From Arenicola marina (Eukaryota > Annelida > Polychaeta > Arenicolidae), in contig OZ025260.1 in the NCBI GenBank assembly GCA_964019135.1, forward strand, positions 12,642,254-12,706,253: a stretch of DNA of 64,000 nucleotides. The letters run 5' to 3'. This document shows positions 6,101 to 64,000 of this stretch, one piece after another. Position 1 is the stretch's first letter; every line of letters starts with the position of its first letter. The notes under the pieces were generated by a model, which saw only the letters and a list, made by a program, of their open reading frames with translations, was not told where the DNA came from and searched no databases. A program made the position numbers and the translations under genes.

Positions 6101-9100
6101 GGTTGCCACTACCCCGCTCAGTGAAGTGGCCCTCAATGTGCTGGTTGCCACTACCCCGCTCAATGAAGTGGTCCTCAATGTGCTGGTTGCCACTACCCCG
6201 CTCAATGAAGTGGTCCTCAATGTGCTGGTTGCCACTACCCCGCTCAGTGAAGTGGTCCTCAATGTGCTGGTTGCCACTACCCCGCTCAATGAAGTGGTCC
6301 TCAATGTGCTGGTTGCCACTACCCCGCTCAATGAAGTGGTCCTCAATGTGCTGGTTGCCACTACCCCTCTCAATAAAGTGGTCCTCAGTGTGCTAGTTGC
6401 CACTACCCCTCTCAATGAAATGGTCCTCAATGTGCTGGTTGCCACTACCCCGCTCAATGAAGTGGTCCTCAATGTGCTGGTTGCCACTACCCCGCTCAAT
6501 GAAGTGGTCCTCAATGTGCTGGTTGCCACTACCCCGCTCAGTGAAGTGGTCCTCAATGTGCTGGTTGCCACTACCCCGCTCAATGAAGTGGTCCTCAATG
6601 TGCTGGTTGCCACTACCCCGCTCAATGGAGTGGCCCTCAATGTGCTGGTTGCCACTACCCCGCTCAGTGAAGTGGCCCTCAATGTGCTTGTTGCCACTAC
6701 CCCGCTCAATGAAGTGGCCCTCAATGTGCTGGTTGCCACTACCCCGCTCAATGAAGTGGCCCTCAATGTGCTGGTTGCCACTACCCCGCTCAGTGAAGTG
6801 GCCCTCAATGTGCTGGTTGCCACTACCCCGCTCAATGAAGTGGTCCTCAATGTGCTGGTTGCCACTACCCCGCTCAGTGAAGTGGTCCTCAATGTGCTGG
6901 TTGCCACTACCCCGCTCAATGAAGTGGTCCTCAATGTGCTGGTTGCCACTACCCCGCTCAATGAAGTGGTCCTCAATGTGCTGGTTGCCACTACCCCTCT
7001 CAATAAAGTGGTCCTCAGTGTGCTAGTTGCCACTACCCCTCTCAATGAAATGGTCCTCAATGTGCTGGTTGCCACTACCCCGCTCAATGAAGTGGTCCTC
7101 AATGTGCTGGTTGCCACTACCCCGCTCAGTGCAGTGGCCCTCAATGTGCTGGTTGCCACTACCCCGCTCAATGAAGTGGTCCTCAATGTGCTGGTTGCCA
7201 CTACCCCGCTCAATGAAGTGGTCCTCAATGTGCTGGTTGCCACTACCCCTCTCAATAAAGTGGTCCTCAGTGTGCTAGTTGCCACTACCCCTCTCAATGA
7301 AATGGTCCTCAATGTGCTGGTTGCCACTACCCCGCTCAATGAAGTGGTCCTCAATGTGCTGGTTGCCACTACCCCGCTCAATGAAGTGGTCCTCAATGTG
7401 CTGGTTGCCACTACTCTGCTAGATGAAGTGGCCCTCAATAGCTGGTGATATTGATAACGACTTTGTTCAATGTTTTGGTTCAAAGGTAGTGCTGGCCTAC
7501 GACTTACTTGGCTTGCTGTGCGTATTTAATAGATGTGCCGTGTTGTGAGGTATATGCTGGTGATATTGTGCTGTTTTTGTTGTTGTTGTTGCAGGGGGGT
7601 TGGGGAGTCCCGCGGGGTACGTGCAGCTAATATGTTGTTGTTGTTGTTGTTGTTGTTGTTGTAGGGGGTCTGGGGAGTCCCGGGGGGTACGTGCAGCTAA
7701 TATGTTGTTGTTGTTGCAGGGGGTCTGGGGAGTCCCGCGGGGTACGTGCAGCTAATATGTTGTTGTTGTTGTTGCAGGGGGTCTGGGGAGTCCCGCGGGG
7801 TACGTGCAGCAGCTGCAGCAGCAGCAGCTCCAGCAGCAGCAGCTGTTGCTGACCCTCAACCAGTTCTACGGCCAACTGTTCGCCCAACACCAGGAGATGG
7901 TCGACCGCTTCGGCCGCCTCGAGCAGCGCCTGGCCCTGGCCAGTGACGTCAGCACCGAGAGCCACAACTACTCCTCCAGCACCCAGCAGCAGCAGCAGCA
8001 GCAGGGAGGGCTGCTGGATATCGCCGCGGGGGGCGCCACCCGCGGGATCTATTCTCAGTCGCTGCCGCCGCCCCCCTTGGGGCTGAGCGGCGCGGCCTCC
8101 CCGAGCGGCCGTCGCCCGGGGCGGGGCCCGCTGGGGTCCGACGCCCTGGCCTTCCCCAGGAGGGAAGGCCAGGGCGCCCCCGGCGGGGGGGCCGCCGGGG
8201 AGGTGACCGCCAGGGCCAGCGGAACCGGCTCCCATGGCGCCTTCTTCCGGGACGTCCGGGATGGCCCGTCAGCAGGGCAGGCTGGGTCCCCCGCCCGCCG
8301 CGCTCGGCAGGTGTCGCCCCTGTCCAGCCAGGTGCGACTGGGTCAGTCTTCGCTTGGGGGCGCCACCAGGAGGCCGCCCGCCAGCGGCACTCAGAGCTCC
8401 TCGGACCGCGTCTCCATAGAAACCATCCTGGCCTGCGACCAGGCAGCGGTGCCCAGGTTGGAGCTAGGGCAGGCGTTGCGCTCCCAGCAACAGGCCAGGT
8501 CAGTAGGAGTTAGGGGCGATATAACATGCTAGCACTCCTTGTGTATTGATACGTAGTAAGTGCAACTTGCTCGCATTACCCCGGCAACGTTAGGGCTAGA
8601 TTGATCCATAGTTTGGAGACTGCTGCAGTATAGAGCCAGAGCCGTCGGGTTATCTCTGTCTGGTAGATACACTGGCCGTGTAACGTACACCTAACCTTCC
8701 AATAGAGCCAGAGCCGTCGGGTTATCTCTGTCTGGTAGATACACTGGCCGTGTAACGTACACCTAACCTTCCAATAGAGCCCGAGCCGTCGGGTTATCTC
8801 TGTCTGGTAGATACACTGGCCGTGTAACGTACACCTAACCTTCCAATAGAGCCAGAGCCGTCGGGTTATCTCTGTCTGGTAGATACACTGGCCGTGTAAC
8901 GTACACCTAACCTTCCAATAGAGCCAGAGCCGTCGGGTTATCTCTGTCTGGTAGATACACTGGCCGTGTAACGTACACCTAACCTTCCAATAGAGCCAGA
9001 GCCGTCGGGTTATCTCTGTCTGGTAGATACACTGGCCGTGTAACGTACACCTAACCTTCCAATAGAGCCCGAGCCGTCGGGTTATCTCTGTCTGGTAGAT

Positions 9101-12100
9101 ACACTGGCCGTGTAACGTACACCTAACCTTCCAATAGAGCCAGAGCCGTCGGGTTATCTCTGTCTGGTAGATACACTGGCCGTGTAACGTACACCTAACC
9201 TTCCAATAGAGCCCGAGCCGTCGGGTTATCTCTGTCTGGTAGATACACTGGCCGTGTAACGTACACCTAACCTTCCAATAGAGCCAGAGCCGTCGGGTTA
9301 TCTCTGTCTGGTAGACACACTGGCCGTGTAACGTACACCTAACCTTCCAATAGAGCCAGAGCCGTCGGGTTATCTCTGTCTGGTAGATACACTGGCCGTG
9401 TAACGTACACCTAACCTTCCAATAGAGCCAGAGCCGTCGGGTTATCTCTGTCTGGTAGATACACTGGCCGTGTAACGTACACCTAACCTTCCAATAGAGC
9501 CAGAGCCGTCGGGTTATCTCTGTCTGGTAGATACACTGGCCGTGTAACGTACACCTAACCTTCCAATAGAGCCAGAGCCGTCGGGTTATCTCTGTCTGGT
9601 AGATACACTGGCCGTGTAACGTACACCTAACCTTCCAATAGAGCCAGAGCCGTCGGGTTATCTCTGTCTGGTAGATACACTGGCCGTGTAACGTACACCT
9701 AACCTTCCAATAGAGCCAGAGCCGTCGGGTTATCTCTGTCTGGTAGATACACTGGCCGTGTAACGTACACCTAACCTTCCAATAGAGCCAGAGCCGTCGG
9801 GTTATCTCTGTCTGGTAGATACACTGGCCGTGTAACGTACACCTAACCTTCCAATAGAGCCAGAGCCGTCGGGTTATCTCTGTCTGGTAGACACACTGGC
9901 CGTGTAACGTACACCTAACCTTCCAATAGAGCCAGAGCCGTCGGGTTATCTCTGTCTGGTAGATACACTGGCCGTGTAACGTACACCTAACCTTCCAATA
10001 GAGCCAGAGCCGTCGGGTTATCTCTGTCTGGTAGATACACTGGCCGTGTAACGTACACCTAACCTTCCAATAGAGCCAGAGCCGTCGGGTTATCTCTGTC
10101 TGGTAGATACACTGGCCGTGTAACGTAACCTAACCTTCCAATAGAGCCAGAGCCGTCGGGTTATCTCTGTCTGGTAGATACACTGGCCGTGTAACGTACA
10201 CCTAACCTTCCAATAGAGCCAGAGCCGTCGGGTTATCTCTGTCTGGTAGATACACTGGCCGTGTAACGTACACCTAACCTTCCAATAGAGCCAGAGCCGT
10301 CGGGTTATCTCTGTCTGGTAGATACACTGGCCGTGTAACGTACACCTAACCTTCCAATAGAGCCAGAGCCGTCGGGTTATCTCTGTCTGGTAGATACACT
10401 GGCCGTGTAACGTACACCTAACCTTCCAATAGAGCCAGAGCCGTCGGGTTATCTCTGTCTGGTAGATACACTGGCCGTGTAACGTACACCTAACCTTCCA
10501 ATAGAGCCAGAGCCGTCGGGTTATCTCTGCCTGGTAGATACACTGGCCGTGTAACGTACACCTAACCTTCCAATAGAGCCAGAGCCGTCGGGTTATCTCT
10601 GTCTGGTAGATACACTGGCCGTGTAACGTACACCTAACCTTCCAATAGAGCCAGAGCCGTCGGGTGATCTCTGTCTGGTAGATACACTGGCCGTGTACCG
10701 TACACCTAACCTTCCAATAGAGCCAGAGCCGTCGGGCTATCTCTGTCTGGTAGATACACTGGCCGTGTAACGTACACCTAACCTTCCAATAGAGCCAGAG
10801 CCGTCGGGTTATCTCTGTCTGGTAGATACACTGGCCGTGTAACGTACACCTAACCTTCCAATAGAGCCAGAGCCGTCGGGTTATCTCTGTCTGGTAGATA
10901 CACTGGCCGTGTAACGTACACCTAACCTTCCAATAGAGCCAGAGCCGTCGGGTTATCTCTGTCTGGTAGATACACTGGCCGTGTAACGTACACCTAACCT
11001 TCCAATAGAGCCAGAGCCGTCGGGTTATCTCTGTCTGGTAGATACACTGGCCGTGTAACGTACACCTAACCTTCCAATAGAGCCAGAGCCGTCGGGTTAT
11101 CTCTGTCTGGTAGACACACTGGCCGTGTAACGTACACCTAACCTTCCAATAGAGCCAGAGCCGTCGGGTTATCTCTGTCTGGTAGATACACTGGCCGTGT
11201 AACGTACACCTAACCTTCCAATAGAGCCCGAGCCGTCGAGTTATCTCTGTCTGGTAGATACACTGGCCGTGTAACGTACACCTAACCTTCCAATAGAGCC
11301 AGAGCCGTCGGGTTATCTCTGTCTGGTAGATACACTGGCCGTGTAACGTACACCTAACCTTCCAATAGAGCCCGAGCCGTCGAGTTATCTCTGTCTGGTA
11401 GATACACTGGCCGTGTAACGTACACCTAACCTTCCAATAGAGCCAGAGCCGTCGGGTTATCTCTGTCTGGTAGATACACTGGCCGTGTAACGTACACCTA
11501 ACCTTCCAATAGAGCCCGAGCCGTCGAGTTATCTCTGTCTGGTAGACACACTGGCCGTGTAACGTACACCTAACCTTCCAATAGAGCCAGAGCCGTCGGG
11601 TTATCTCTGTCTGGTAGATACACTGGCCGTGTAACGTACACCTAACCTTCCAATAGAGCCAGAGCCGTCGGGTTATCTCTGTCTGGTAGACACACTGGCC
11701 GTGTAACGTACACCTAACCTTCCAATAGAGCCAGAGCCGTCGGGTTATCTCTGTCTGGTAGATACACTGGCCGTGTACCGTACACCTAACCTTCCAATAG
11801 AGCCAGAGCCGTCGGGTTATCTCTGTCTGGTAGATACACTGGCCGTGTAACGTACACCTAACCTTCCAATAGAGCCAGAGCCGTCGGGTTATCTCTGTCT
11901 GGTAGATACACTGGCCGTGTAACGTACACCTAACCTTCCAATAGAGCCAGAGCCGTCGGGTTATCTCTGTCTGGTAGATACACTGGCCGTGTAACGTACA
12001 CCTAACCTTCCAATAGAGCCCGAGCCGTCGAGTTATCTCTGTCTGGTAGACACACTGGCCGTGTAACGTACACCTAACCTTCCAATAGAGCCAGAGCCGT

Positions 12101-15100
12101 CGGGTTATCTCTGTCTGGTAGATACACTGGCCGTGTAACGTACACCTAACCTTCCAATAGAGCCAGAGCCGTCGGGTTATCTCTGTCTGGTAGACACACT
12201 GGCCGTGTAACGTAACCTAACCTTCCAATAGAGCCAGAGCCGTCGGGTTATCTCTGTCTGGTAGATACACTGGCCGTGTAACGTACACCTAACCTTCCAA
12301 TAGAGCCAGAGCCGTCGGGTGATCTCTGTCTGGTAGATACACTGGCCGTGTACCGTACACCTAACCTTCCAATAGAGCCAGAGCCGTCGGGCTATCTCTG
12401 TCTGGTAGATACACTGGCCGTGTAACGTACACCTAACCTTCCAATAGAGCCAGAGCCGTCGGGTTATCTCTGTCTGGTAGATACACTGGCCGTGTAACGT
12501 ACACCTAACCTTCCAATAGAGCCAGAGCCGTCGGGTTATCTCTGTCTGGTAGATACACTGGCCGTGTAACGTACACCTAACCTTCCAATAGAGCCAGAGC
12601 CGTCGGGTTATCTCTGTCTGGTAGATACACTGGCCGTGTAACGTACACCTAACCTTCCAATAGAGCCAGAGCCGTCGGGTTATCTCTGTCTGGTAGATAC
12701 ACTGGCCGTGTAACGTACACCTAACCTTCCAATAGAGCCAGAGCCGTCGGGTTATCTCTGTCTGGTAGACACACTGGCCGTGTAACGTACACCTAACCTT
12801 CCAATAGAGCCAGAGCCGTCGGGTTATCTCTGTCGTGTAGATACACTGGCCGTGTAACGTACACCTAACCTTCCAATAGAGCCCGAGCCGTCGAGTTATC
12901 TCTGTCTGGTAGATACACTGGCCGTGTAACGTACACCTAACCTTCCAATAGAGCCAGAGCCGTCGGGTTATCTCTGTCTGGTAGATACACTGGCCGTGTA
13001 ACGTACACCTAACCTTCCAATAGAGCCCGAGCCGTCGAGTTATCTCTGTCTGGTAGATACACTGGCCGTGTAACGTACACCTAACCTTCCAATAGAGCCA
13101 GAGCCGTCGGGTTATCTCTGTCTGGTAGATACACTGGCCGTGTAACGTACACCTAACCTTCCAATAGAGCCCGAGCCGTCGAGTTATCTCTGTCTGGTAG
13201 ACACACTGGCCGTGTAACGTACACCTAACCTTCCAATAGAGCCAGAGCCGTCGGGTTATCTCTGTCTGGTAGATACACTGGCCGTGTAACGTACACCTAA
13301 CCTTCCAATAGAGCCAGAGCCGTCGGGTTATCTCTGTCTGGTAGACACACTGGCCGTGTAACGTACACCTAACCTTCCAATAGAGCCAGAGCCGTCGGGT
13401 TATCTCTGTCTGGTAGATACACTGGCCGTGTACCGTACACCTAACCTTCCAATAGAGCCAGAGCCGTCGGGTTATCTCTGTCTGGTAGATACACTGGCCG
13501 TGTAACGTACACCTAACCTTCCAATAGAGCCAGAGCCGTCGGGTTATCTCTGTCTGGTAGATACACTGGCCGTGTAACGTACACCTAACCTTCCAATAGA
13601 GCCAGAGCCGTCGGGTTATCTCTGTCTGGTAGATACACTGGCCGTGTAACGTACACCTAACCTTCCAATAGAGCCCGAGCCGTCGAGTTATCTCTGTCTG
13701 GTAGACACACTGGCCGTGTAACGTACACCTAACCTTCCAATAGAGCCAGAGCCGTCGGGTTATCTCTGTCTGGTAGATACACTGGCCGTGTAACGTACAC
13801 CTAACCTTCCAATAGAGCCAGAGCCGTCGGGTTATCTCTGTCTGGTAGACACACTGGCCGTGTAACGTAACCTAACCTTCCAATAGAGCCAGAGCCGTCG
13901 GGTTATCTCTGTCTGGTAGATACACTGGCCGTGTAACGTACACCTAACCTTCCAATAGAGCCAGAGCCGTCGGGTTATCTCTGTCTGGTAGACACACTGG
14001 CCGTGTAACGTACACCTAACCTTCCAATAGAGCCAGAGCCGTCGGGTTATCTCTGTCTGGTAGATACATTGGCCGTGTAACGTACACCTAACCTTCCAAT
14101 AGAGCCAGAGCCGTCGGGTTATCTCTGTCTGGTAGATACACTGGCCGTGTAACGTACACCTAACCTTCCAATAGAGCCAGAGCCGTCGGGTTATCTCTGT
14201 CTGGTAGATACACTGGCCGTGTAACGTACACCTAACCTTCCAATAGAGCCAGAGCCGTCGGGTTATCTCTGTCTGGTAGATACACTGGCCGTGTAACGTA
14301 CACCTAACCTTCCAATAGAGCCAGAGCCGTCGGGTTATCTCTGTCTGGTAGATACACTGGCCGTGTAACGTACACCTAACCTTCCAATAGAGCCAGAGCC
14401 GTCGGGTTATCTCTGTCTGGTAGATACACTGGCCGTGTAACGTACACCTAACCTTCCAATAGAGCCAGAGCCGTCGGGTTATCTCTGTCTGGTAGATACA
14501 CTGGCCGTGTAACGTACACCTAACCTTCCAATAGAGCCAGAGCCGTCGGGTTATCTCTGTCTGGTAGATACACTGGCCGTGTAACGTACACCTAACCTTC
14601 CAATAGAGCCAGAGCCGTCGGGTTATCTCTGCCTGGTAGATACACTGGCCGTGTAACGTAACCTAACCTTCCAATAGAGCCAGAGCCGTCGGGTTATCTC
14701 TGTCTGGTAGATACACTGGCCGTGTAACGTACACCTAACCTTCCAATAGAGCCAGAGCCGTCGGGTTATCTCTGTCTGGTAGACACACTGGCCGTGTAAC
14801 GTACACCTAACCTTCCAATAGAGCCAGAGCCGTCGGGTTATCTCTGTCTGGTAGATACACTGGCCGTGTAACGTACACCTAACCTTCCAATAGAGCCAGA
14901 GCCGTCGGGTTATCTCTGTCTGGTAGATACACTGGCCGTGTAACGTACACCTAACCTTCCAATAGAGCCAGAGCCGTCGGGTTATCTCTGTCTGGTAGAC
15001 ACACTGGCCGTGTAACGTAACCTAACCTTCCAATAGAGCCAGAGCCGTCGGGTTATCTCTGTCTGGTAGATACACTGGCCGTGTAACGTACACCTAACCT

Positions 15101-18100
15101 TCCAATAGAGCCAGAGCCGTCGGGTTATCTCTGTCTGGTAGATACACTGGCCGTGTAACGTACACCTAACCTTCCAATAGAGCCAGAGCCGTCGGGTTAT
15201 CTCTGTCTGGTAGATACACTGGCCGTGTAACGTACACCTAACCTTCCAATAGAGCCAGAGCCGTCGGGTTATCTCTGTCTGGTAGATACACTGGCCGTGT
15301 AACGTACACCTAACCTTCCAATAGAGCCAGAGCCGTCGGGTTATCTCTGTCTGGTAGATACACTGGCCGTGTAACGTACACCTAACCTTCCAATAGAGCC
15401 AGAGCCGTCGGGTTATCTCTGTCTGGTAGATACACTGGCCGTGTAACGTACACCTAACCTTCCAATAGAGCCAGAGCCGTCGGGTTATCTCTGTCTGGTA
15501 GATACACTGGCCGTGTAACGTACACCTAACCTTCCAATAGAGCCAGAGCCGTCGGGTTATCTCTGTCTGGTAGACACACTGGCCGTGTAACGTACACCTA
15601 ACCTTCCAATAGAGCCAGAGCCGTCGGGTTATCTCTGTCTGGTAGACACACTGGCCGTGTAACGTACACCTAACCTTCCAATAGAGCCAGAGCCGTCGGG
15701 TTATCTCTGTCTGGTAGATACACTGGCCGTGTAACGTAACCTAACCTTCCAATAGAGCCAGAGCCGTCGGGTTATCTCTGTCTGGTAGATACACTGGCCG
15801 TGTAACGTACACCTAACCTTCCAATAGAGCCAGAGCCGTCGGGTTATCTCTGTCTGGTAGATACACTGGCCGTGTAACGTACACCTAACCTTCCAATAGA
15901 GCCAGAGCCGTCGGGTTATCTCTGTCTGGTAGATACACTGGTCGTGTAACGTACACCTAACCTTGCAGTCCTATTCCAGAGGCGCCGGGAGAAGCAGAGA
16001 CGGCCCGTCGTCCAGAGATAACGACGAAGGTACTTACTTCTCACTGACTTCAGGGTACTGATATATCCCATAAACCTGGAGTATCTCCTCTTCTAACGGA
16101 TGAAGCATGAGCGGGAACTACCTAAGTTTGTGTTTGGTTTGTATATGTGTTACTGCGGGTTGACATTGTGTGATTTGAGGTCGTAATAATACCAAAGTAG
16201 GTAATACGTGATAACTGATCGTGTGATCAAAATTATTTATCTTTTACATCAACATTTCATTTTATTTTTTTACCATGTGTCCATTAGGGTGACCAAAGAC
16301 ATGACATGTATACGGCCATTCCGTGTTTTAGTGCTGATTACCCAGTTCACGCCGGGCCTCCGCGCCGAGGCCGCCGCCAGTCTCGCCAGCCAGCGCGTCC
16401 CCGCCGACCCCATGCCCCCCAGAGCCACCTACCGGGAGAGCTTGAGCGCCGGCATCAGTGGCGCCGGATACGGCGATGCGGCCAGCGTCTCAAGCGCCGT
16501 CTCCAGCGTCCAGGCCCGTGACGTCACCGGCTTCAGGGGTCATGACCCCCGCGGCGTCGGCCGCTACCAGACCTCTACCAGTCAAATGTAGGTCATCGTA
16601 CGTCAACGTCAACATTAAGTGTCGCAAACTTTTGCAGCGGATATTTGGTCAATAATTGCTATATGGCAATTGTTTACAGTTGGGGGTGTAAATATTTTCA
16701 AAGCATCCTATCACAAGAGTAAGTACGTATGTGCACAGAGGTGGCTTATAATGCCATTCTCCCCCTCTCGCCCCGCCCTATCCCAGGGGTGAGTCGGACG
16801 CCACGAGTTAACCCATTTGTGCACAAAGATGGCTTAGAATGCCATTCTCCCCCTCTCGCCCCGCCCTATCCCAGGAGTGAGTCGGACGCCAGGAGTTATT
16901 AACCCATTTGTGCACAAAGGTGGTCTAAGACACCAGTCTCTGCCTCTCTCACCCCCCCCCCCCCCGCCCTATCCTAGGAGTGAGTCGGACGGCCGGAGCG
17001 GCGATCTGGACCTGTTCGAGGCGCTCCGGGAGACGATATACGCCGAGGTAGCCACGCTGATCTCGCAGAACGAGAGCCGACCCCACTTCCTGATCGAGCT
17101 CTTCCGCGAGCTCCAGCTCCTCAACAACGACTACCTCCGCCAGAGGGGGCTGTACGCCCTGCAGGACCTCGTGGCCAAGTACCTCCGGGAGGACGAGACA
17201 GGGAACCAGGCGGCCGCACAGGCAGCGGTACGCAGTCCGCTGTCCTTGTTGAAAATGTGGTATACGTAGTGTTAGACGTTAATATTATGCGAAGTGTTAG
17301 ACGTTAATATTAGACGTAGTGTTAGACGTTAATATTAGACGTAGTGTTAGACGTTAATATTATACGTAGTGTTAGAGGTTAATATTAGACGTAGTGTTAG
17401 AGGTTAATATTAGACGTAGTGTTAGACGTTAATATTAGACGTAGTGTTAGACGTTAATATTATGCGTAGTGGTGGCGTTAATATTATGCGTAGTGGTGGC
17501 GTTAATATTAGACGTAGTGTTAGACGTTAATATTATGCGTAGTGGTGGCGTTAATATTAGACGTAGTGTTAGACGTTAATATTATGCGTAGTGGTGGCGT
17601 TAATATTAGACGTAGTGTTAGACGTTAATATTAGACGTAGTGTTAGACGTTAATATTATACGTAGTGTTAGACGTTAATATTAGATGTAGCGTTAGACGT
17701 TCATATTAGACGTAGTGTTAGACGTTAATATTATTCGTAGTGTGACATTAATATTAGACGTAGTGTTAGACGTTAATATTAGACGTAGTGTTAGACGTTA
17801 ATATTATTCGTAGTGTGAGACGTTAATATTAGACGTAGTGTTCAACGTTAATATTAGACGTAGTGTTAGACGTTAATATTAGACGTAGTGTTAGACGTTA
17901 ATATGATACGTAGTGTTAGAGGTTAATATTAGACGTAGTGTTAGAGGTTAATATTAGACGTAGTGTTAGACGTTAATATTAGACGTAGTGTTAGACGTTA
18001 ATATTATGCGTAGTGGTGGCGTTAATATTAGACGTAGTGTTAGACGTTAATATTATTCGTAGTGTGACATTAATATTAGACGTAGTGTTAGAGGTTAATA

Positions 18101-30100: not shown

Positions 30101-33100
30101 CGATCGCAGCGAGAACATTGTAAGTTGTTCTCTGATCAGACCTGTTGTGTGTTATGACTGTCTGTGTGTCACCCCTAGCACTATTTATTTGGCATGGTAC
30201 ATACATACATACATCTGATACAGCTGTATAATCAGGCTTGAAGCCTATCAGCTGGTCGTGGCTCTAAACCAACGCTTTTACATTTATAATCAGTGCAAAA
30301 CATACCGCAGGACTAAAGGTAGGCGGTAGGCAGATACCAAGGAATCATTTCACAAGCCCTTCTCGCACTCAGTAACTGCGGCCCATTATGACACCAGGTC
30401 TGGGGTAAACCCATGTCTCACCCAATGTCATATACATAGCATTATGACACCAGGTCTGGGGTAAACCCATGTTGCACCCAATGCCATATACATAGCATTA
30501 TGACACCAGGTCTGGGGTAAACCCATGTCGCACCCAATGCCATATACATAGCATTATGACACCAGGTCTGGGGTAAACCCATGTCGCACCCAATGCCATA
30601 TACATAGCATTATGACACCAGGTCTGGGGTAAACCCATGTCGCACCCAATGCCATATACATAGCATTATGACACCAGGTCTGGGGTAAACCCATGTCGCA
30701 CCCAATGCCACATACATAGCATTATGACACCAGGTCTGGGGTAAACCCATGTCGCACCCAATGCCATATACATAGCATTATGACACCAGGTCTGGGGTAA
30801 ACCCATGTCGCACCCAATGCCATATACATAGCATTATGACACCAGGTCTGGGGTAAACCCATGTCGCACCCAATGCCATATACATAGCATTATGACACCA
30901 GGTCTGGGGTAAACCCATGTCGCACCCAATGCCATATACATAGCATTATGACACCAGGTCTGGGGTAAACCCATGTCGCACCCAATGCCATATACATAGC
31001 ATTATGACACCAGGTCTGGGGTAAACCCATGTCGCACCCAATGCCATATACATAGCATTATGACACCAGGTCTGGGGTAAACCCATGTCGCACCCAATGC
31101 CATATACATAGCATTATGACACCAGGTCTGGGGTAAACCCATGTCGCACCCAATGCCATATACATAGCATTATGACACCAGGTCTAGGGGTAAACCCATG
31201 TCGCACCCAATGCCATATACATAGCATTATGACACCAGGTCTGGGGTAAACCCATGTCGCACCCAATGCCATATACATAGCATTATGACACCAGGTCTGG
31301 GGTAAACCCATGTCGCACCCAATGCCATATACATAGCATTATGACACCAGGTCTGGGGTAAACCCATGTCGCACCCAATGCCATATACAGCGATTACTGC
31401 GGTGCAGCCATCTTAGTGAAATTAATGTTTCATTGTCAGTATTTATTTATTTGTTACAAAATATGCCCTCTATTTATGATAAGTGAACATTTTTAATTTT
31501 TTGCCCGAAAATGCAAATTTCCAATTTCAATTTCAAATGGCCAAAAGTTGGTAGGTTCGAGTGAGATGGTTCCCAGCTTACTCCTGTACACTGTTGTATT
31601 GTGTGTTGTTGTAGTACCCTAATAGCTTGATGGAGGGTGTGGGGTGGGGGTTGTCTTCCCATGGTAGACCCTTGGATTACCCATTAGATTATAACGATTA
31701 GACGTTGTAACTGCCACTGGTTGCCAGTGGCCATAAACCAACCACACGACTGGACAGGATTCTGTATGTTCGTGTTAAGCCACTTTTGAACATGAGGGGT
31801 AAACTGGGTCAACACCTTCCTGATCCTGCACAGACAGACATTGCACAGCAAGATTCGAACCACGCACCAGCCACTCAGGCTTTTATCTGATTATTTGTGT
31901 TTCTCCTGCACACAATTGTCGCTTTCTGTAGACATTGTTCACCTGCAAGAGAATGTTTTTCATGACTTGGATCTGTTGGTATAATATCTGTGTGTTATGG
32001 ACTCGTCCTTGTTGTTTTGGTAACTTAAAGTATCTGGTTTCAACACGGTGTTCCTGGATGCGGAGGTTTCCGATAGAACTATGGTTACTATGGTTACTAT
32101 TGTCGTACAGACCTGAATGTGTGTCAACAATGGCGCCTTCGCCCCCCCCCTCCCCCCGCCCCCGATGACCCCTGGTTGAACCCTCCCTCTCTCATCGTCG
32201 CCCTCGGTCCATCTTACCTCCCCCAGTAACCCCGGAATGACCTCTCACCCTCTGCCATCTCCCCCATCTTACCTCCCCCAGTAACCCCGGAATGAACTCT
32301 CACCCTCTGCCATCTCCCCCATCTTACCTCCCCCAGTAACCCCGGAATGACCTCTCACCCTCTACCATCATCGGCTTATCTGCTCCAGACCCCTCCCACA
32401 TCCCCGGACCAAGTCTCCCCCACCTCTTATCACCCCCTCTTATCTCTCCACACCTCTTTACCTTCCACCTTGTATTGCCCCACTCCCCCATACCCCCGGA
32501 CCAACTCCCAAGTCTCCCCCACCTCTTATCACCCTCTTTATATCTTCCAGTACCACCTCTTATCTGTCCTCATACCTTCCACCCCTTATCTACCCTCAGT
32601 CTCCTGGACAACGCTCACCCCCTCTTACCTCCCCGCCCCCCCAGTACGCTCTCTGAGCACCCCTCTTATCTCCCTACCCCAGGACGCCCTCTTATATCTC
32701 CTCTTATCTCCCTTCCCACACTACGCCCTGTAATCTCCCCTCTTATCGCTCTCCCCGCATTACGCCCTCTTATCTCCCCTCATTATCTCCCCTCCTATCT
32801 CCTTCCCCACACTACGCCCTCTTATCTCCCCTCATTATCTCCCCTCCTATCTCCTTCCCCACACTACGCCCTCTTATCTCCTCTCATTATCTCCCGTCCT
32901 ATCTCCTTCCCCACACTACGCCCTTTTATCTCCTCATTATCTCCCCTCCTATCTCCTTCCCCACACTACGCCCTCTTATTTCCCCTCCTATCTCCTTCCC
33001 CACACTAGGCCCTCTTATTTCCCCTCCTATCTCCTTCCCCACACTACGCCCTCTTATCTCCCCTCCTATATCCTTCCCCACACTACGCCCTCTTATCTCC

Positions 33101-39100: not shown

Positions 39101-42100
39101 ATATATGTACATTGTAGGATCTATGCTATATATGTACATTGTAGGATCTATGCTATGTATGTACATTGTAGGATCTATGCTATGTATGTACATTGTAGGA
39201 TCTATGATATATATGTACATTGTAGGATCCATGCTATATATGTACATTGTAGGATCTATGCTATGTATGTACATTGTAGGATCTATGCTATGTATGTACA
39301 TTGTAGGATCTATGCTATGTATGTACATTGTAGGATCTATGCTATATATGTACATTGTAGGATCTATGCTATGTATGTACATTGTAGGATCCATGCTATA
39401 TATGTACATTGTAGGATCTATGCTATGTATGTACATTGTAGGATCTATGCTATATATGTACATTGTAGGATCCATGCTATATATGTACATTATAGGATCT
39501 ATGCTATATATGTACATTGTAGGATCTATGCTATATATGTACATTGTAGGATCCATGCTATATATGTACATTGTAGGATCTATGCTATATATGTACATTG
39601 TAGGATCTATGATATATGTGTACATTGTAGGATCTATGATATATATGTACATTGTAGGATCTATGCTATGTATGTACATTGTAGGATCCATGCTATATAT
39701 GTACATTGTAGGATCTATGCTATATATGTACATTGTAGGATCTATGATATATATGTACATTGTCGGATCTATGCTATATATGTACATTGTAGGATCTATG
39801 CTATATATGTACATTGTAGGATCCATGCTATATATGTACATTGTAGGATCTATGCTATGTATGTACATTGTAGGATCCATGCTATATATGTACATTGTAG
39901 GATCTATGCTTTATATGTACATTGTAGGATCTATGCTATATATGTACATTGTAGGATCTATGATATATATGTACATTGTAGGATCTATGCTATGTATGTA
40001 CATTGTAGGATCTATGCTATGTATGTACATTGTAGGATCTATGCTATGTATGTACATTGTAGGATCTATGCTATGTATGTACATTGTAGGATCTATGCTA
40101 TGTATGTACATTGTAGGATCTATGCTATGTATGTACATTGTAGGATCTATGCTATGTATGTACATTGTAGGATCTATGATATATATGTACATTGTAGGAT
40201 CTATGCTATGTATGTACATGGTAGGATCTATGCTATGTATGTACATGGTAGGATCTATGCTATGTATGTACATTGTAGGATCTATGCTATGTATGTACAT
40301 TGTAGGATCTATGCTATGTATGTACATTGTAGGATCTATGCTATATATGGCGCTCATTTGGATTTCTCTCTAGATGAGGCTGCAACAAGTCCGATAGATG
40401 TCGCTGCGGGAGGCGACAATACTCAGACAGAAGCGGGAGCGGACACCCTGGCGGCCAAACGAGGCTCCGTCAATGGCTTCCACGCACCAGTCGTCAACGG
40501 CACGGTACGTAAGGACGCGGTACGTAAGGGCACGGTGCGTAAGCCCACGGTGCGTAAGGGCACGGTACGTAAGGGCACGGTGCGTGAGTGCACGGTGCGT
40601 AAGGGCACGGTACGTAAGGGCACGGTACGTAAGAGCACATTAACTTTTGCAAAGCAACTGTACAAGTTACAGGGAAAACTCCAGTGCGCACGCTTCTGAC
40701 ATTTTTAAAGTGTCATTTGTTTTTTTACTTCAGTCTTTAATTATGTTAAGTGTGACAGTTATATTATCGTACTATCGTACTGTTATTACAATAAAACTTC
40801 AATAACAAAATGGTGCCTATATTTCCATGAGTAGATATTTTTAGTCCAATTATACATTCTCGTCTATTTTCTTTGCTCAACTATACCTTCTCGTCTCGGG
40901 GCCGCCCTGATAGCTTAGTGGGCTAGAGCGCTCGCATTGAGTGCTCAGGTCACCTGAAAGCCTAACGGCACGTGGGTCGGTGGTTCGAGCCCCGCTGTGG
41001 CCATGTCTGTGTGGTCGCATGATAAACCTCCCATGTCTTTCTTCGAAAAGAGTAGGGGGTTACCCCCGGAGACATGGCTCCACTCTCCCTTCCTTCTCCC
41101 ATTGACGCTATATGACCAAAAGTGATTAAAGCGTCCTGAATAACCAACCAACCAACCTTATCGTCTCAACTATTGTCTTTGCACCACTATGCCTTCTTTT
41201 CTCGACTGTATCTTCGTAGACCATTTACTATGAGAGAAGAGGTATATTAACATTGATATGTTGATGTGAATGTTACTAATATGGAAAGTCACGGAGCTGC
41301 ACAAACATTTGTTTTGAACATCTGAAAAAGCTTTTGTTCAAGTTGCCCAAAAGTAAGATTGCCAGCAGTAAGCAAAATGTGAATTGCCTCGAGCCATCTT
41401 GACTAAGGCGTGTCCAGTCACCTCCAAGGCACCTCATGAGTGACACTGTTTGGTCATTGGAGCTAATCCTGTAGCCAGTGGTCCCAGCGACCTGCCGACG
41501 TTAAGCGTTAGTGTTAACGTTTGGTTTTGTTAACAGGTGGAAGAGGACGAGGAAATTCCTGAAGAAATAATCACGGTCAATGACTTACCAGCCAATTTCA
41601 GTTCCATCTCCAAGGTACGCGGCAAAGCCATAACGACATTTTTTTCTTTAGATGGTGTCTCGACTAGGATAAGTTTTTACTGTTATTGGAAGCAAACGTA
41701 CTTACGAAGTGTCAGCTCATGATGGCCACTTAACCATAACGACCTCCCGCCCATAACAGCCACCCGCCCATAACAGCCCCTCGTCCATAACGACCACCCG
41801 TCCATAACGATCACCCGCCCATAACGACCACCCGTCCATAACAGCCACCCGCCCATAACAGCCACCCGCCCATAACAGCCCCCCGCCCGTAACAGCCCCC
41901 CGTCCATAACGACCATCCGCCCATAACGACCACCCGTCCATAACAGCCACCCGCCCATAACGAACACCCGTCCATAACGACCATCCGCCCATAACAGCCA
42001 CCCGCCCGTAACAGCCACCCGCCCATAACAGCCCCCCACCCATAACAGCCCCCCACCTATAACAGCCCCCCGCCTATAACAGCCCCCCGTCCATAACGAC

Positions 42101-45100
42101 CACCCGTCCATAACTACCACCGTCCATAACGACCACCCATCCTTAACAAACATTTACACATAATAACTAATAATCCATAGCTGCCACCCGCCAATAACGA
42201 CCATTTATCTATAACGACTACCCGTCCATAAAAGCCACCCGCCTATAGCGACCTCCCATCCATAACGACCATCCGCCAATCACAGCCACCCGCCCATAAC
42301 GACCACCAGCCCATAACTACCCGCCCATATCGACCATTCGTCCATAACAAGTAATAATCCATAGCTGCCACCCGTCCATAACAACCATGACGACCACCCG
42401 TCCCTAACGACCATCCGCCCATAACAGCCACCAGCCCATGACGACCACCTGTCCCTAACGACCATCCGCCCACAACAGCCACCAGCCCATAACGACCACC
42501 CGCCTATAACGACCACCCCCCTATAACGATCACCTTCCATAACGACCACCCGCCCAGTGACCACCCGCCCATAACTCACACCTGTCCGTAATGACCACCC
42601 GCCCATAGCAACCCGCCCATGACGACTACCTGTCCGTAACGACCACCCGCCCATAACGACCACCCGTCCATAACGACCAACCGTCCATAACGACCACCCG
42701 CCCATAGCGACCACCCGCCCATAACGACCATCCGCCCATAACAGCCACCCGCCCATAACGACCACCCGTCCATAACAACTAATAATTCATAGCTGCCACC
42801 CGTCCATAACGACCAGCCGTCCATAACAACTAATAAACCATAGCTGCCACCCGCCCATAACGATCATCCGCCTATAACGACCACCCGCCCATAGCGACCA
42901 CCCATCCAAAACGACCGCCCGTCCATAACGACCACCCGCCCATAACGACCATTTAGCCATGGCAGCTAATAATCCATAACGACCACCCGCCCATGACCAC
43001 CTGCCCATAGTGACCACCGTCCATAACGACCGCCCGTCCATGACCACCCGCCCATAGCGACCACCCGTCCAGAACGACCACCCGTCCATAGCGACCACCC
43101 GCCCATAACGACCATCCGCCCAGAACGACCACCCGTCCATAACAGCCACCCGTCCATTCCAACCACCCACCAATAACGACATCCGCCCGTAACGACCAGT
43201 CCATAACGGCCCGTAACGACTACCCGCCCGTAACGACCACCGTCCATAACGACTACCCGCCCGTAACGACCACCCGCCCGTAACGACCACCCGCCCGTAA
43301 CGACCACCCGCCCGTAACGACCACCCACCCGTAACGACCACCCACCCGTTTCGACAACCCGCCCGTAACGACCACCCGCCCATAACGACCTCTCGCCCAC
43401 CCGCCCGTAACGACCACCCACCCGTAACGACCACCCACCCGTTTCGACAACCCGCCCGTAACGACCACCCGCCCATAACGACCTCTCGCCCATAACGACC
43501 ATTTACCCATGACAGCTAATAATCCATAACGACCACCCGCCCATGACCACCTGCCCATAGCGACCACCGTCCATAACGACCAACCGCCCATGACCACCCG
43601 CCCATAGCGACCACCCGTCCAGAACGACCACCCATTCATAGCGACCACCCGTCCATAACAGCCACCCGTCCATAACGACCACCCACCCGTAATGACACCC
43701 GCCCGTAACGACCACCCGCCCGTAACGACCACCGTCCATAACGACCACCCGCCCGTAACGACCACCCATCCATAGCCACCACCCGTCCATAACGACCACC
43801 CACCCGTAACGACCACTCGTCCATAAGAACATAATGGCTATCTTCCCCACAGGAGGAGTTGGACCAGAAGAGACAGGACGAGGAGGAGGACATTGCTAGC
43901 GGTCTGCTGGCTCTGGCGCCCGCCTGTCACCAGGAACTGGCCGGGGATCCTCTGGCCATCAAACAACCAGGTAACTGTGGCCCTTTCACGTTACTTTTTG
44001 GTTCTACTTGTGTCTGTATAGATCCAGTTGTGAAGTTTTATTTTACATTATAAGCTTCGGCTTCTGCTGTTGTCTATGTAATATATGTTTGTTCACTTGC
44101 GATGCATACCTTTCGACTATATACATTATTATTATAACTTTACCATTCTAGCCCATTATAGTGCATGAACCATGGCGCCTTGAGCATTGCGCCTTGAGCA
44201 TTGCGCCTTGACCATTGCGCCTTGACCATTGCGCCTTGACCATTGCGCCTTGAGCATTGCGCCTTGAGCATTGCGCCTTGACCATTGCGCCTTGACCATT
44301 GCGCCTTGACCATTGCGCCTTGAGCATTGCGCCTTGAGCATTGCGCCTTGAGCATTGCGCCTTGACCATTGCGCCTTGAGCATTGCGCCTTGACCATTGC
44401 GCCTTGACCATTGCGCCTTGACCATTGCGCCTTGACCATTGCGCCTTGACCATTGCGCCTTGAGCACTGCGCCTTGACCATTGCGCCTTGACCATTGCGC
44501 CTTGACCATTGCGCCTTGAGCACTGCGCCTTGACCATTGCGCCTTGAGCATTGCGCCTTGACCATTGCGCCTTGACCATTGCGCCTTGACCATTGTGCCT
44601 TGAGCATCGCGCCTTGAGCATTTCACCTGATGAATGTACGCTGACACAAAGATGGGTGTGGTGGCTGTACGCTGACACAATGATGGATGTGGTGACTGTA
44701 CGCTGACACAAAGATGGATGTGGTGACTGTATGCTGACACAATGATGGATGTGGTGACACAATGATGGATGTGGTGGCTGTACGCTGACACAATGATGGA
44801 TGTGGTGACTACGTTGACACAAAGATGGATGTGGTGACTGTACGCTGACACAAAGATGGTTGTGGTGACTGTACGCTGACACAATGATGGATGTGGTGGC
44901 TGTACGCTGACACAATGATGGATGTGGTGGCTGTACGCTGACACAATGATGGATGTGGTGACTACGTTGACACAATGATGGATGTGGTGACTGTACGCTG
45001 ACACAATGATGGATGTGGTGAATGTACGCTGACACAATGATGGATGTGGTGGCTGTACGCTGACACAATGATGGATGTGGTGACTGTACGCTGACACAAA

Positions 45101-58700: not shown

Positions 58701-58709
58701 TCTCTTCGT

Positions 58710-58980: not shown

Positions 58981-59131
58981 ATACCAAGTACAAAAATGTG
59001 GATATAATCCAGCCTTTTCACTCAATGTGGCATGATCTACAAATAACTCCCCAGAATAAACGTTCACAGGCTAAATTAACAACACATACATCGTCTTACA
59101 ATAACTTAAGTAGACAGGGCCATCGAAGTCG

Positions 59132-59323
59132 TCACTCCTCGCCCTCATCTGGACTGAGGATCTTGGAGAGGTCCTTGGCCTTCTGAAGGTTCTGTGAGAG
59201 GACCTTCTCGGAGCACATGGGGCACGTGTCTTCCACCTCCAGCAAGGCCACGAACTCAGGCAAGATGGCGGGGAACTCGCACTTGGGGCATTGCGTCACC
59301 TCTTCCTTCATCACGTGCCGGCC
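59132..59323 (-). CDS. WDR19: WDR19 (IFT144) terminal exon
   Basis: WDR19/IFT144 is a WD40-TPR subunit of intraflagellar transport complex A, which acts in retrograde transport and membrane-protein entry in cilia (family knowledge). Minus-strand acceptor TATCATTGCAG is followed by GRHVMKEEVTQCPKCEFPAI, EFVALLEVEDTCPMCSEKVL and a tail ending SPDEGEE, then TGA (59134-59132). Vertebrate WDR19 ends with GRHMLKDDW, a CPHCDFPAL segment and TCPMCSE, so identity and position agree. CPKC and CPMC form one pair of a zinc-ribbon-like module. The exon enters in phase 0. Confidence 0.92.
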   Translation of the reverse strand, partial: GRHVMKEEVTQCPKCEFPAILPEFVALLEVEDTCPMCSEKVLSQNLQKAKDLSKILSPDEGEE

Positions 59324-60525
59324 CTGCAATGATACAGACAGACAGGGTGTAAGGGGCCCTGCAATGATACAGACAGACAGTGTGTGAGGGGCCCTGCAAT
59401 GATACAGACAGACAGTGTGTGAGGGGCCCTGCAATGATACAGACAGACAGGGTGTGAGGGGCACTGCAATGATACAGACAGACAGGGTGTGAGGGGCACT
59501 GCAATGATACAGACAGACAGGGTGTGAGGGGCCCTGCAATGATACAGACAGACAGTGTGTGAGGGGCCCTGCAATGATACAGACAGAGTGTGAGGGGCCC
59601 TGCAATGATACAGACAGACAGAGTGTGAGGGGCCCTGCAATGATACAGACAGACAGGGTGTGAGGGGCACTGCAATGATACAGACAGACAGGGTGTGAGG
59701 GGCCCTGCAATGATACAGACAGACAGTGTGTGAGGGGCCCTGCAATGATACAGACAGAGTGTGAGGGGCCCTGCAATGATACAGACAGACAGAGTGTGAG
59801 GGGCCCTGCAATGATACAGACAGACAGGGTGTGAGGGGCACTGCAATGATACAGACAGACAGGGTGTGAGGGGCCCTGCAATGATACAGACAGACAGGGT
59901 GTGAGGGGCCCTGCAATGATACAGACAGACAGGGTGTGAGGGGCCCTGCAATGATACAGACAGACAGGGTGTGAGGGGCACTGCAATGATACAGACAGAC
60001 AGGGTGTGAGGGGCCCTGCAATGATACAGACAGAGTGTGAGGGGCCCTGCAATGATACAGACAGACAGGGTGTGAGGGGCCCTGCAATGATACAGACAGA
60101 CAGGGTGTGAGGGGCACTGCAATGATACAGACAGACAGGGTGTGAGGGGCCCTGCAATGATACAGACAGACAGGGTGTGAGGGGCACTGCAATGATACAG
60201 ACAGACAGAGTGTGAGGGGCCCTGCAATGATACAGACAGACAGGGTGTGAGGGGCACTGCAATGATACAGACAGACAGGGTGTGAGGGGCCCTGCAATGA
60301 TACAGACAGACAGGGTGTGAGGGGCACTGCAATGATACAGACAGACAGAGTGTGAGGGGCCCTGCAATGATACAGACAGACAGGGTGTGAGGGGCCCTTC
60401 AATGATACAGACAGACAGAGTGTGAGGGGCCCTGCAATGATACAGACAGAGTGTGAGGGACCCTGCAATGATACAGACAGGGTGTGAGGGGCCCTGCAAT
60501 GATACAGACAGACAGAATGTGGTGG
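59324..60525 (-). repeat. Acceptor-containing minisatellite, 35-bp unit, about 34 copies
   Basis: On the minus strand each unit reads CTGTCTGTCTGTATCATTGC AG followed by GGCC or TGCC and CCTCACACC. The last unit supplies the real acceptor and first bases of the terminal WDR19 exon. Units of 31 bp lack one CTGT. All three minus-strand frames are free of stops through the array. Confidence 0.94.
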
Positions 60526-60948
60526 GCAGAACACAGACATTAGGACTCGATGTACACGGAAGTGTGGAGGCAAGTATTGAAATGATGTCAACGAAAATTG
60601 TACCAGAGCAAATATTTACATCGTTCACCGGGAAATGTTGGCATTATAAAAAAGCAGAGTCAGATAACAGGCGTTGTATCACGCGGTGTTGGCATGATTT
60701 AAAGGCAGATTAATTGCTCAGGTTTATAAGCACATAGTGACCTGACAGTAAACAGGGGTTCGCGTACGTTTGTGTATGTTTTTCTTGTGCACAGCCAGAT
60801 GTAGGTGTTCAATGCGCCTGTATTTTAAGCAACTCAACTACGTGTGTTGTTCTTGGGTGAAGATCATTTATGATAATAACTGAGTTGTAATTGTACACGC
60901 AAAACGTGACCATGATGTTGGCCTCGGGGACTACCCCCCCGCGCTCAC
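60526..60948. other. WDR19 intron part, unique
   Basis: Unique intron between the 35-bp array and the donor of the preceding exon. No other feature. Confidence 0.5.
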
Positions 60949-61072
60949 CGTCACAATGCAGTAGGGGATGTTGTTTTTACACTCCGGACAGACCAGTTCT
61001 GTCTCCGCCAGCTGGAAGCCGCAGTACGGACACGGCGTGGCTGGCTCCTCCTCCTCACTCTTGTCAGGCTTC
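60949..61072 (-). CDS. WDR19: WDR19 (IFT144) penultimate exon, zinc-binding motif
   Basis: Minus-strand acceptor GTTACCAG precedes 61072; donor ACG/GTGAGC after 60949. 124 bp, phase 2 in, phase 0 out. It reads KPDKSEEEEPATPCPYCGFQ, LAETELVCPECKNNIPYCIV and T. Vertebrate WDR19 has RPDISE, TPCPFCKF and CPGCKNSIPYCIATGRH, the last spanning the same junction to the terminal exon. CPYC and CPEC are the first CxxC pair of the C-terminal zinc module. The preceding exon is off the right edge, but its end is visible as copies in the adjoining array. Confidence 0.93.
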
Positions 61073-61384
61073 CTGGTAACGGAGAGCAAGTATTACACAG
61101 ATAAACTCAAAACTCAAGCGCGTCTTTTTTTTTTGGTGCAACATTAAAGTAATTTAGCCGCAACTGTGATTATAAGTCGAGTAAGGTATCTCTAGACGAC
61201 GATGTCCAGCATAACGGTGATAAGTTGGACACGAATGAAAGCATTTCTGTTTATTCAAGAGACACGGTATGATTTCTTTTCTTTTCACCAGATATGGGTC
61301 CTGATTCCACTTACACTAACCGCCATATTGAAGAAGAAAACAAAACACTGGACTGGTTATTATCGTTACACTCCAGCGGGACGA
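61073..61384. other. WDR19 intron part, unique
   Basis: About 310 bp between the penultimate exon and the 51/52-bp array, with a T(9) run near 61126. Nothing else recognised. Confidence 0.5.
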
Positions 61385-64000
61385 TGACGTCACACACCTG
61401 ACTATGCCCTCTAGCCTTACACTCCAGAGGGACGATGACGTCACACACCTGACTATGCCCTCTAGCCTTACACTCCAGAGGGACGATGACGTCACACACC
61501 TGACTATGCCCTCTTGCTTTACACTCCAGAGGGACGATGATGTCACACACCTGACTATGCCCCTCTAGCTTTACACTCCAGAGGGACGATGACGTCACAC
61601 ACCTGACTATGCCCTCTAGCTTTACACTCCAGAAGGACGATGATGTCACACACCTGACTATGCCCCTCTAGCTTTACACTCCAGCGGGACGATGACGTCA
61701 CACACCTGACTATGCCCCTCTAGCTTTACACTCCAGAGGGACGATGATGTCACACACCTGACTATGCCCCTCTAGCTTTACACTCCAGAGGGACGATGAT
61801 GTCACACACCTGACTATGCCCCTCTAGCTTTACACTCCAGAGGGACGATGACGTCACACACCTGACTATGCCCTCTAGCTTTACACTCCAGAGGGACGAT
61901 GATGTCACACACCTGACTATGCCCCTCTAGCTTTACACTCCAGCGGGACGATGACGTCACACACCTGACTATGCCCCTCTAGCTTTACACTCCAGAGGGA
62001 CGATGATGTCACACACCTGACTATGCCCCTCTAGCTTTACACTCCAGAGGGACGATGATGTCACACACCTGACTATGCCCCTCTAGCTTTACACTCCAGC
62101 GGGACGATGACGTCACACACCTGACTATGCCCCTCTAGCTTTACACTCCAGCGGGACGATGACGTCACACACCTGACTATGCCCCTCTAGCTTTACACTC
62201 CAGAGGGACGATGACGTCACACACTTGACTATGCCCCTCTAGCTTTACACTCCAGCGGGACGATGACGTCACACACCTGACTATGCCCCTCTAGCTTTAC
62301 ACTCCAGAGGGACGATGATGTCACACACCTGACTATGCCCCTCTAGCTTTACAATCCAGAGGGACGATGATGTCACACACCTGACTATGCCCCTCTAGCT
62401 TTACACTCCAGAGGGACGATGACGTCACACACCTGACTATGCCCTCTAGTTTTACACTCCAGAGGGACGATGATGTCACACACCTGACTATGCCCCTCTA
62501 GCTTTACACTCCAGCGGGACGATGACGTCACACACCTGACTATGCCCCTCTAGCTTTACACTCCAGCGGGACGATGACGTCACACACTTGACTATGCCCC
62601 TCTAGCCTTACACTCCAGAGGGACGATGATGTCACACACCTGACTATGCCCCTCTAGCTTTACACTCCAGAGGGACGATGATGTCACACACCTGACTATG
62701 CCCCTCTAGCTTTACACTCCAGAGGGACGATGACGTCACACACCTGACTATGCCCTCTAGCTTTACACTCCAGAGGGACGATGATGTCACACACCTGACT
62801 ATGCCCCTCTAGCTTTACACTCCAGCGGGACGATGACGTCACACACCTGACTATGCCCCTCTAGCTTTACACTCCAGAGGGACGATGATGTCACACACCT
62901 GACTATGCCCCTCTAGCTTTACACTCCAGAGGGACGATGATGTCACACACCTGACTATGCCCCTCTAGCTTTACACTCCAGCGGGACGATGACGTCACAC
63001 ACCTGACTATGCCCCTCTAGCTTTACACTCCAGCGGGACGATGACGTCACACACCTGACTATGCCCCTCTAGCTTTACACTCCAGAGGGACGATGACGTC
63101 ACACACTTGACTATGCCCCTCTAGCTTTACACTCCAGCGGGACGATGACGTCACACACCTGACTATGCCCCTCTAGCTTTACACTCCAGAGGGACGATGA
63201 CGTCACACACCTGACTATGCCCTCTTGCTTTACACTCCAGAGGGACGATGATGTCACACACCTGACTATGCCCCTCTAGCTTTACACTCCAGCGGGACGA
63301 TGACGTCACACACCTGACTATGCCCCTCTAGCTTTACACTCCAGAGGGACGATGATGTCACACACCTGACTATGCCCCTCTAGCTTTACACTCCAGAGGG
63401 ACGATGACGTCACACACCTGACTATGCCCTCTAGCTTTACACTCCAGAGGGACGATGATGTCACACACCTGACTATGCCCCTCTAGCTTTACACTCCAGC
63501 GGGACGATGACGTCACACACCTGACTATGCCCCTCGAGCTTTACACTCCAGAGGGACGATGATGTCACACACCTGACTATGCCCCTCTAGCTTTACACTC
63601 CAGCGGGACGATGACGTCACACCCCTGACTATGCCCCTCTAGCTTTGCACTCCAGCGGGACGATGACGTCACACACCTGACTATGCCCCTCTAGCTTTAC
63701 ACTCCAGAGGGACGATGACGTCACACACTTGACTATGCCCCTCTAGCTTTACACTCCAGCGGGACCATGACGTCACACACCTGACTATGCCCTCTAGCTT
63801 TACACTCCAGAGGGACGATGACGTCACACACCTGACTATGCCCCTCTAGCTTTACACTCCAGCGTGACGATGACGTCACACACCTGACTATGCCTCTCTA
63901 GCTTTACACTCAAGAGGGACGATGATGTCACACACCTGACTATGCCCCTCTAGCTTTACACTCCAGCGGGACGATGACGTCACACACCTGACTATGCCTC
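61385..64000 (-). repeat. Donor-spanning minisatellite of WDR19, 51-52-bp unit, at least 50 copies
   Basis: On the minus strand the unit reads TGGAGTGTAAAGCTAGAG, G(G)GCATAGTCAG, then GTGTGTGACGTCATCGTCCC. The 51-bp form translates as WSVKLEGIVR ending in AG before GT. AG plus the first G of exon 60949-61072 gives Arg, making KLEGIVR-KPD, as in vertebrate KIEGMVR-RPD. The unit therefore appears to repeat the end of the preceding exon with its donor. Most units have an extra G (52 bp), which breaks that frame. The array runs off the window. Confidence 0.93.

Follow-up and report, generated by a model that had tools for sequence, protein, structure and literature searches.

Why do minisatellites at this locus contain the splice junctions of the genes that they occupy? 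The question is raised by a 64-kb window of genomic DNA (C13:12642254-12706253 of an 867-Mb assembly), which carries arrays on the DNA of both of its genes, namely part of PCM1 on the + strand and the last two exons of WDR19/IFT144 on the - strand. We analyzed this window together with 200 kb of flanking DNA, a 264-kb locus of which tandem repeats make up half, in 121 non-redundant arrays. The junction-spanning arrays are of a known kind, the 'mirages' of amphioxus, probably in a new lineage and now measured.

We checked the arrays named in the initial annotation using Tandem Repeats Finder (TRF), direct reading and gene models (Table 1). Six of the 7 arrays said to hold a splice junction do so, namely those at 7777, 16977, 34861, 40504 and 59324, and that of the WDR19 exon to the right of 64000. 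The seventh, at 38193, instead copies exon sequence into the intron, as was also described: bases 38116-38150 are its source, there are 14 matches to this piece with the exon itself counted, and the copied piece ends before the donor is reached. The 72-bp and pyrimidine arrays were correctly described as merging into acceptors, ending 4 and 3 bp before those of the exons at 15969 and 33429, respectively; the exon from 15969 lacks homology support. The donor at 34861/34862 has 27 more copies within 1.5 kb, and over the whole array GT is kept in 48 of the 52 other copies that could be aligned. For the WDR19 exon 35 donor, 89 other copies were aligned, 87 of them with GT. The unit at donor 40504 has 9 matches including the original, and fails the 24-mer test described below, its exon share being only 6 bp. 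The acceptor at 7777/7778 has 3 more junction copies within 1.5 kb, with AG kept in 4/4 aligned copies, and the exon start behind it shows no strong homology. Two more junction copies lie within 1.5 kb of the acceptor at 16977/16978, whose adjoining exon is homologous to human PCM1.

Splice junctions of further genes

We next examined CLTC (C11), POLR2B (C17) and VCP (C2; 10 kb, part of the gene), conserved genes that were picked before their DNA was seen. Together with WDR19 they provided a set of 91 donors and 91 acceptors with homology support; PRPF8 and UBA1 were likewise placed in the genome but do not belong to this set. For WDR19, we excluded as unreliable the gene ends, the exon 9 acceptor and the junctions of model exons 1 and 5-8; also excluded were the first acceptors of CLTC, POLR2B and VCP, CLTC after the exon 27 acceptor, and the last ends of POLR2B and VCP. 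A junction was scored as spanned if an array held at least 12 bp of both exon and intron (12-bp rule) or, in a looser variant, 4 bp (4-bp rule). The 24-mer test, which is independent of TRF, asks whether the 24 bases around a junction recur within 1.5 kb.

Under the 12-bp rule, 16/91 donors were spanned (WDR19, 6; CLTC, 3; POLR2B, 7; VCP, 0), compared to 3/91 acceptors (2, 1, 0 and 0, respectively), while the 4-bp rule gave 16/91 donors and 6/91 acceptors (Fisher p = 0.0027 and 0.039, respectively). The 24-mer test identified 17/91 donors versus 4/91 acceptors in the four genes (p = 0.0044; range 0.0007-0.011 over six settings), 11/60 versus 2/60 in the three genes outside the WDR19 locus (p = 0.016; range 0.004-0.043), and 18/102 versus 6/102 with PCM1 added (p = 0.015). 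Like mirages, these arrays have units that extend across the exon-intron boundary (16/91 donors, 3-6/91 acceptors and the six arrays noted above) and occur at several unrelated loci, namely PCM1, WDR19, CLTC and POLR2B, or 4/5 genes on three contigs. Such density is not special to the initial locus: in POLR2B, on another contig, 9/42 junctions were spanned (4-bp rule).

These counts were compared to a null in which each array was collapsed to one unit and the founders were placed uniformly over introns and junctions. Under the 12-bp rule, 16 donors were spanned versus 2.84 expected, and 3 acceptors versus 2.84. Since interior arrays are GC-rich (0.53 versus 0.42 in unique intron, p = 1e-6) and intron starts are GC-richer than intron ends (0.53 in the first 60 bp, 0.44 in the last 60 bp), the null was repeated with GC weighting. 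Expectations for donors were then 4.17 (12-bp rule, P = 8e-6) and 6.4 (4-bp rule, P = 0.001) against 16 observed in each case, while acceptors numbered 3 versus 3.41 and 6 versus 5.4, respectively. A further null kept each of 69 arrays in its own intron with uniform placement. In this comparison, there were 15 donor-spanning arrays versus 6.2 expected and 6 acceptor-spanning arrays versus 6.2; 10 arrays versus 5.4 for the first 30 bp of introns and 3 versus 7.6 for the next 70 bp; 20 versus 31.4 in the interior; and 8 versus 7.6 from 100 to 30 bp before the acceptor. Taken together, in the four genes pooled, donors are spanned in excess whereas acceptors stand at expectation, so that the expectation of more repeats at splice sites than by chance holds for the former and fails for the latter.

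Chance combined with tolerance might suffice, in that arrays making up about half of the DNA must straddle some junctions and selection permits those that do. The abundance of tandem repeat in the 264 kb and the agreement of acceptors with the uniform expectation are both in keeping with this explanation. We nevertheless consider it rather doubtful, given a donor excess with P ranging from 1e-3 to 4e-8 by rule and weighting, although these Poisson values assume independent arrays, and decayed arrays or later intron insertions, which the null omits, could inflate the interior expectation. The donor-acceptor contrast set against the GC-weighted share is free of that problem, and is of moderate strength (p = 0.008, 12-bp rule).

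On the donor side, copy coverage is about 0.30 within the intron (50-120 bp from the junction), 0.19 where exon and intron meet, and down to 0.01 once 60 bp of exon have been passed; around acceptors it is 0.21 at -60, drops from about -50 and reaches 0.04 at the junction. Introns are thus filled by arrays, which overrun donors to take in as much as about 60 bp of exon and thin out over roughly the last 50 bp ahead of acceptors. Among the modeled exons of the four genes, only one array (CLTC, 12-bp units) lies wholly within a coding exon. The simple reading that arrays concentrate at junctions was ruled out by this profile, which lacks a peak there.

The profile also bears on a mutational hot spot at 5' splice sites, where transcription-linked breaks or slippage would found duplications at donors irrespective of later selection. 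Donor-spanning arrays at 2.4-5.8 times expectation, depending on the null, and the surplus of arrays that begin within 30 bp of an intron start argue for such a hot spot. However, coverage does not peak at the junction itself, GC preference accounts for part of the donor excess, and mean donor strength is equal at spanned and unspanned donors (8.2 versus 8.0 bits); as a full account we regard it as unlikely. The mechanism focused at exon-intron junctions that was initially proposed is therefore unsupported as worded, with no coverage peak and acceptors at expectation. A surplus does exist at donors and in the first 30 bp. Since the excess of donor-spanning arrays survives GC weighting, a donor-side bias is possible.

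Inner copies and the favored explanation

At the 21 junctions identified by the 24-mer test (17 donors and 4 acceptors), 252/252 copies are found on the intronic side of the protein-fitting junction. With PCM1 included, 363/439 inner donor copies equaled or exceeded the used donor in score (15/18 arrays by median), as did 71/177 inner acceptor copies relative to the used acceptor (5/9 arrays); in the latter set the scoring alignment was mis-anchored for the 16978 array, whose copies were read without the AG that direct reading finds there. Substitutions among copies amounted to 0.039 in the exonic and 0.037 in the intronic part (16 arrays), and to 0.022, 0.044 and 0.042 at first, second and third codon positions, the third not exceeding the second. 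Compared with all windows of the unit, with CpG columns and gaps excluded, the splice core fell below the middle in 14/23 arrays (p = 0.40; Wilcoxon p = 0.19). The inner copies are thus without detectable constraint. Of 27 unit lengths, 21 are not divisible by three, so that splicing at an inner site would in most cases change the reading frame. The outermost junction is the one that restores the conserved protein.

These measurements also bear on the view that the arrays have a function, with the extra donors serving as U1 landing pads to shield long introns or to set splicing. In its favor, 411/439 inner donor copies are intact, and an initial, naive tally had the splice core varying less than the rest of the unit in 23/25 arrays. 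This core signal was lost after control for CpG columns, gaps and window ranking, leaving a functional role very improbable. An assembly artefact, in which misassembled heterozygous or repeat sequence makes the arrays, is scarcely credible: the one exon tested has a single match and no second haplotype was found for comparison, but units differ between several genes, copies differ from one another at regular spacing, and an analogous lancelet case, PGBD5, was confirmed by resequencing according to its authors (PMC3902484).

We favor, as a reasonably probable explanation, that these are neutral, GC-favored mirage minisatellites, tolerated since splicing at the outermost site would leave the mRNA unharmed, with a donor-side excess that is left unexplained. 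A junction-straddling segment, mostly of 35-120 bp, would duplicate in tandem and then expand into the intron. The outermost copy would remain the working splice site, such that mRNA and protein are unchanged, while the inner copies would turn into intron and drift. The spliceosome is presumed to use the outermost copy; at donors, position (first transcribed) and not strength would decide, so that duplications would be more readily tolerated there than at acceptors. GC-rich DNA and the 5' ends of introns would be the preferred places of founding events. Donor duplications may persist despite equally strong inner donors because the outermost donor would be the first to be transcribed. The alternative raised in the initial annotation, namely that selection lets only those arrays persist in which a splice site still works, fits better than a junction-focused mechanism, in view of the intron-side position of all copies and the lack of constraint on the inner ones. 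The donor excess over GC-weighted random origin is unexplained by tolerance and leaves room for a donor-side mutational bias.

Several findings weigh against the explanation that we favor. Tolerance alone predicts no donor excess over uniform origin, and a second cause is needed. Acceptors do not fall below expectation, such that purging of acceptor duplications is unsupported, and arrays that end within the final 30 bp of introns are, if anything, numerous (7 versus 4.7, within-intron null). Under the 4-bp rule, the donor share differs from the GC-weighted null with a p of only 0.065. PCM1 alone displays no donor preference in the 24-mer test (1/11 donors, 2/11 acceptors), and has a further acceptor array to the left of the window (-6581 to -3368); VCP has no junction-spanning array among its 26 junctions. 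The lower variability at first codon positions, compared with second and third ones, is unexplained. Finally, 'outermost' is a statement of homology: the copy chosen by the model is whichever one matches the protein, and its use in RNA is a prediction.

A broader and more doubtful proposal is that minisatellites are born at 5' splice sites throughout the genome, both here and, independently, in lancelets. About 1 donor in 6 of conserved genes would then head a series of intact donors of equal strength, and the spliceosome would skip as many as about 90 of these by position alone. If true, animal genomes rich in minisatellites would share a convergent trait, which would amount to a natural experiment on how donors are chosen.

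Amphioxus mirages and the host lineage

Tandem repeats across exon-intron boundaries were named mirages in amphioxus globins and Adh3, where Adh3 data and globin reverse transcription PCR are reported to suggest undisturbed regular splicing, and where a role in intron gain was proposed (PMC3087553). PGBD5 was added as a further case, with Adh and TnC cited (PMC3902484). The available passages on amphioxus huntingtin mention tandem repeats in the scaffolds of the gene and not mirages (PMC2206037). The likeness to the known cases (Adh3, globins BflGb6/BflGb9, PGBD5 and TnC) is the junction-spanning tandem unit. The quoted globin case has 3-6 units (PMC3087553), compared to up to about 90 junction copies here; donor excess and lack of constraint are measured here, and the host is most likely a protostome. 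Length instability between haplotypes or in soma is a further mark of mirages, and the one exon tested here yielded no second haplotype. The parallel initially drawn with an amphioxus Adh locus is correct as literature, but the host here is most likely a protostome. Known hosts of mirages are lancelets, a feature most likely not shared here, which concerns hosts and not the definition of the structure. Among the matches listed from the open-access literature, there was no report of mirage-type repeats outside lancelets.

Intron gain by tandem duplication, the topic of PMC4974935 and PMC2891723, likewise involves splice signals, but the arrays described here sit at existing introns and none was shown to form a new one. 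Introner-like elements, treated in PMC4457414, also are repeated DNA with splice signals. Introners are dispersed copies, whereas these arrays are local tandem repeats of the gene's own junction. Ordinary intronic minisatellites share the GC-richness, tandem arrangement and units of tens of bp, and 47/69 arrays in these introns hold no splice junction (4-bp rule). A lancelet phenomenon is carried to a most likely protostome and quantified, with a donor-acceptor asymmetry; with tens of intact donors beside the protein-fitting one in some arrays, the rule of donor choice and the published intron-gain idea become directly testable.

To our knowledge, the microRNA families mir-2 and bantam are confined to protostomes. 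For mir-2, two hairpins lie 394 bp apart on C10, scoring 47.2 bits (above the Rfam cut-off of 45.5) and 42.6 bits (below it); 60 of 157,657 candidates were scored, and 1/14 control genomes also matched, below the cut-off. A single bantam match (62.3 bits, E = 5.7e-10) exceeded its cut-off with the control genomes silent. Green fluorescent protein (GFP) is a multigene family in lancelets. The genome search returned no GFP match, which is weak because the control matched nowhere, and no match to mollusc haemocyanin, for which the control was uninformative. A table in PMC8016320 marks mir-2 and bantam P, read as protostome origin. Given the mir-2 and bantam matches and the lack of a GFP match, the host is judged most likely a protostome. 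Separately, a COX1 match at C762:7161-8501 contains 13 in-frame TGA codons, as in a metazoan mitochondrial code.

Gene models and other features

PCM1 was identified by conserved blocks that match the human protein (tblastn), and the exon tested has one match genome-wide. Its full spliced alignment was rich in spurious exons where the protein is unconserved, and the PCM1 counts were confined to 22 curated junctions. The joined exon pieces of WDR19/IFT144 match PDB chains named WD repeat-containing protein 19 at ~1000 bits; spliced alignment of human WDR19 gave a 37-exon model in which exons 1 and 5-8 are unreliable.

Table 1. Arrays and exons of PCM1 and WDR19, in window coordinates (position 1 is the first base of the 64-kb window)
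Feature	Position	Strand	Details or basis
Acceptor-spanning array, PCM1	7578..7811	+	Unit about 55-58 bp, ~30 bp exon; used acceptor 7777/7778
72-bp array, 102 copies	8630..15964	+	Ends 4 bp before acceptor (exon from 15969); AG outside unit
Acceptor-spanning array, PCM1	16730..16995	+	88-bp unit, ~18 bp exon; used acceptor 16977/16978
Pyrimidine array running into acceptor tract of exon 33429	32619..33425	+	Ends 3 bp before acceptor
Donor-spanning array, PCM1	34833..37559	+	Unit about 49 bp and longer variants, 29 bp exon; used donor 34861/34862
Exon-copying array, 32-bp unit	38191..38647	+	Copies exon bases 38116-38150; donor outside unit
Donor-spanning array, PCM1	40499..40638	+	15-bp unit (6 bp exon, 9 bp donor); used donor 40504/40505
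Acceptor-spanning array, WDR19 last exon	59320..60515	-	35-bp unit, 34 full copies, 4 bp exon; exon starts 59323
Donor-spanning array, WDR19 exon 35	61366..64000, on to 66022	-	52-bp unit, 12 bp exon
Further PCM1 acceptor array, left of window	-6581 to -3368		88-bp unit, ~36 copies; modeled acceptor at -3394, weakly supported model
PCM1 exon, EVATLISQNESRPHFLIELF block	16978..17227	+	tblastn vs human PCM1, 78% identity, E 1.5e-23
PCM1 exon	33429..33667	+	tblastn E 1.5e-29; single genome match
PCM1 exon	34038..34173	+	tblastn E 1.2e-9
PCM1 exon, origin of copied segment 38116-38150	38016..38161	+	Homology and direct reading
PCM1 exon	40374..40504	+	Reading frame and splice signals
PCM1 exon	41537..41614	+	Direct reading and spliced alignment/tblastn step
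PCM1 exon	43853..43970	+	Spliced alignment/tblastn step
WDR19 last coding exon (model exon 37, without stop codon)	59144..59323	-	Gene model
WDR19 exon 36	60949..61072	-	Gene model
WDR19 exon 35, donor-bearing, right of window	66161-66011	-	Gene model

WDR19 exon 31 has a second, diverged copy ~0.5 kb downstream that encodes the same protein block (ALKHF.../ALQHF...; L012:978-1805). In the window frame, the pair lies to the right of the window at 75805-75659 and about 75127-74978 on the - strand, and this tandem exon duplication may be mutually exclusive. Intron 4 of WDR19 holds a 12-kb array of 213 copies of a 56-bp unit (window frame 116186-128067, right of the window), near the place where exons for human residues 97-201 had no reliable placement. 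An Rfam scan of 134 kb (the window and L030-L037) returned no match. The sequence at 40905-41010 is tRNA-like with a B-box-like end, as judged by eye, and may be a tRNA-derived short interspersed element (SINE). Scoring 40 of 151 genomic candidates gave at least 39 further copies, with 88-95% identity, of a dispersed 150-bp repeat at 19544-19694, which is probably a SINE.

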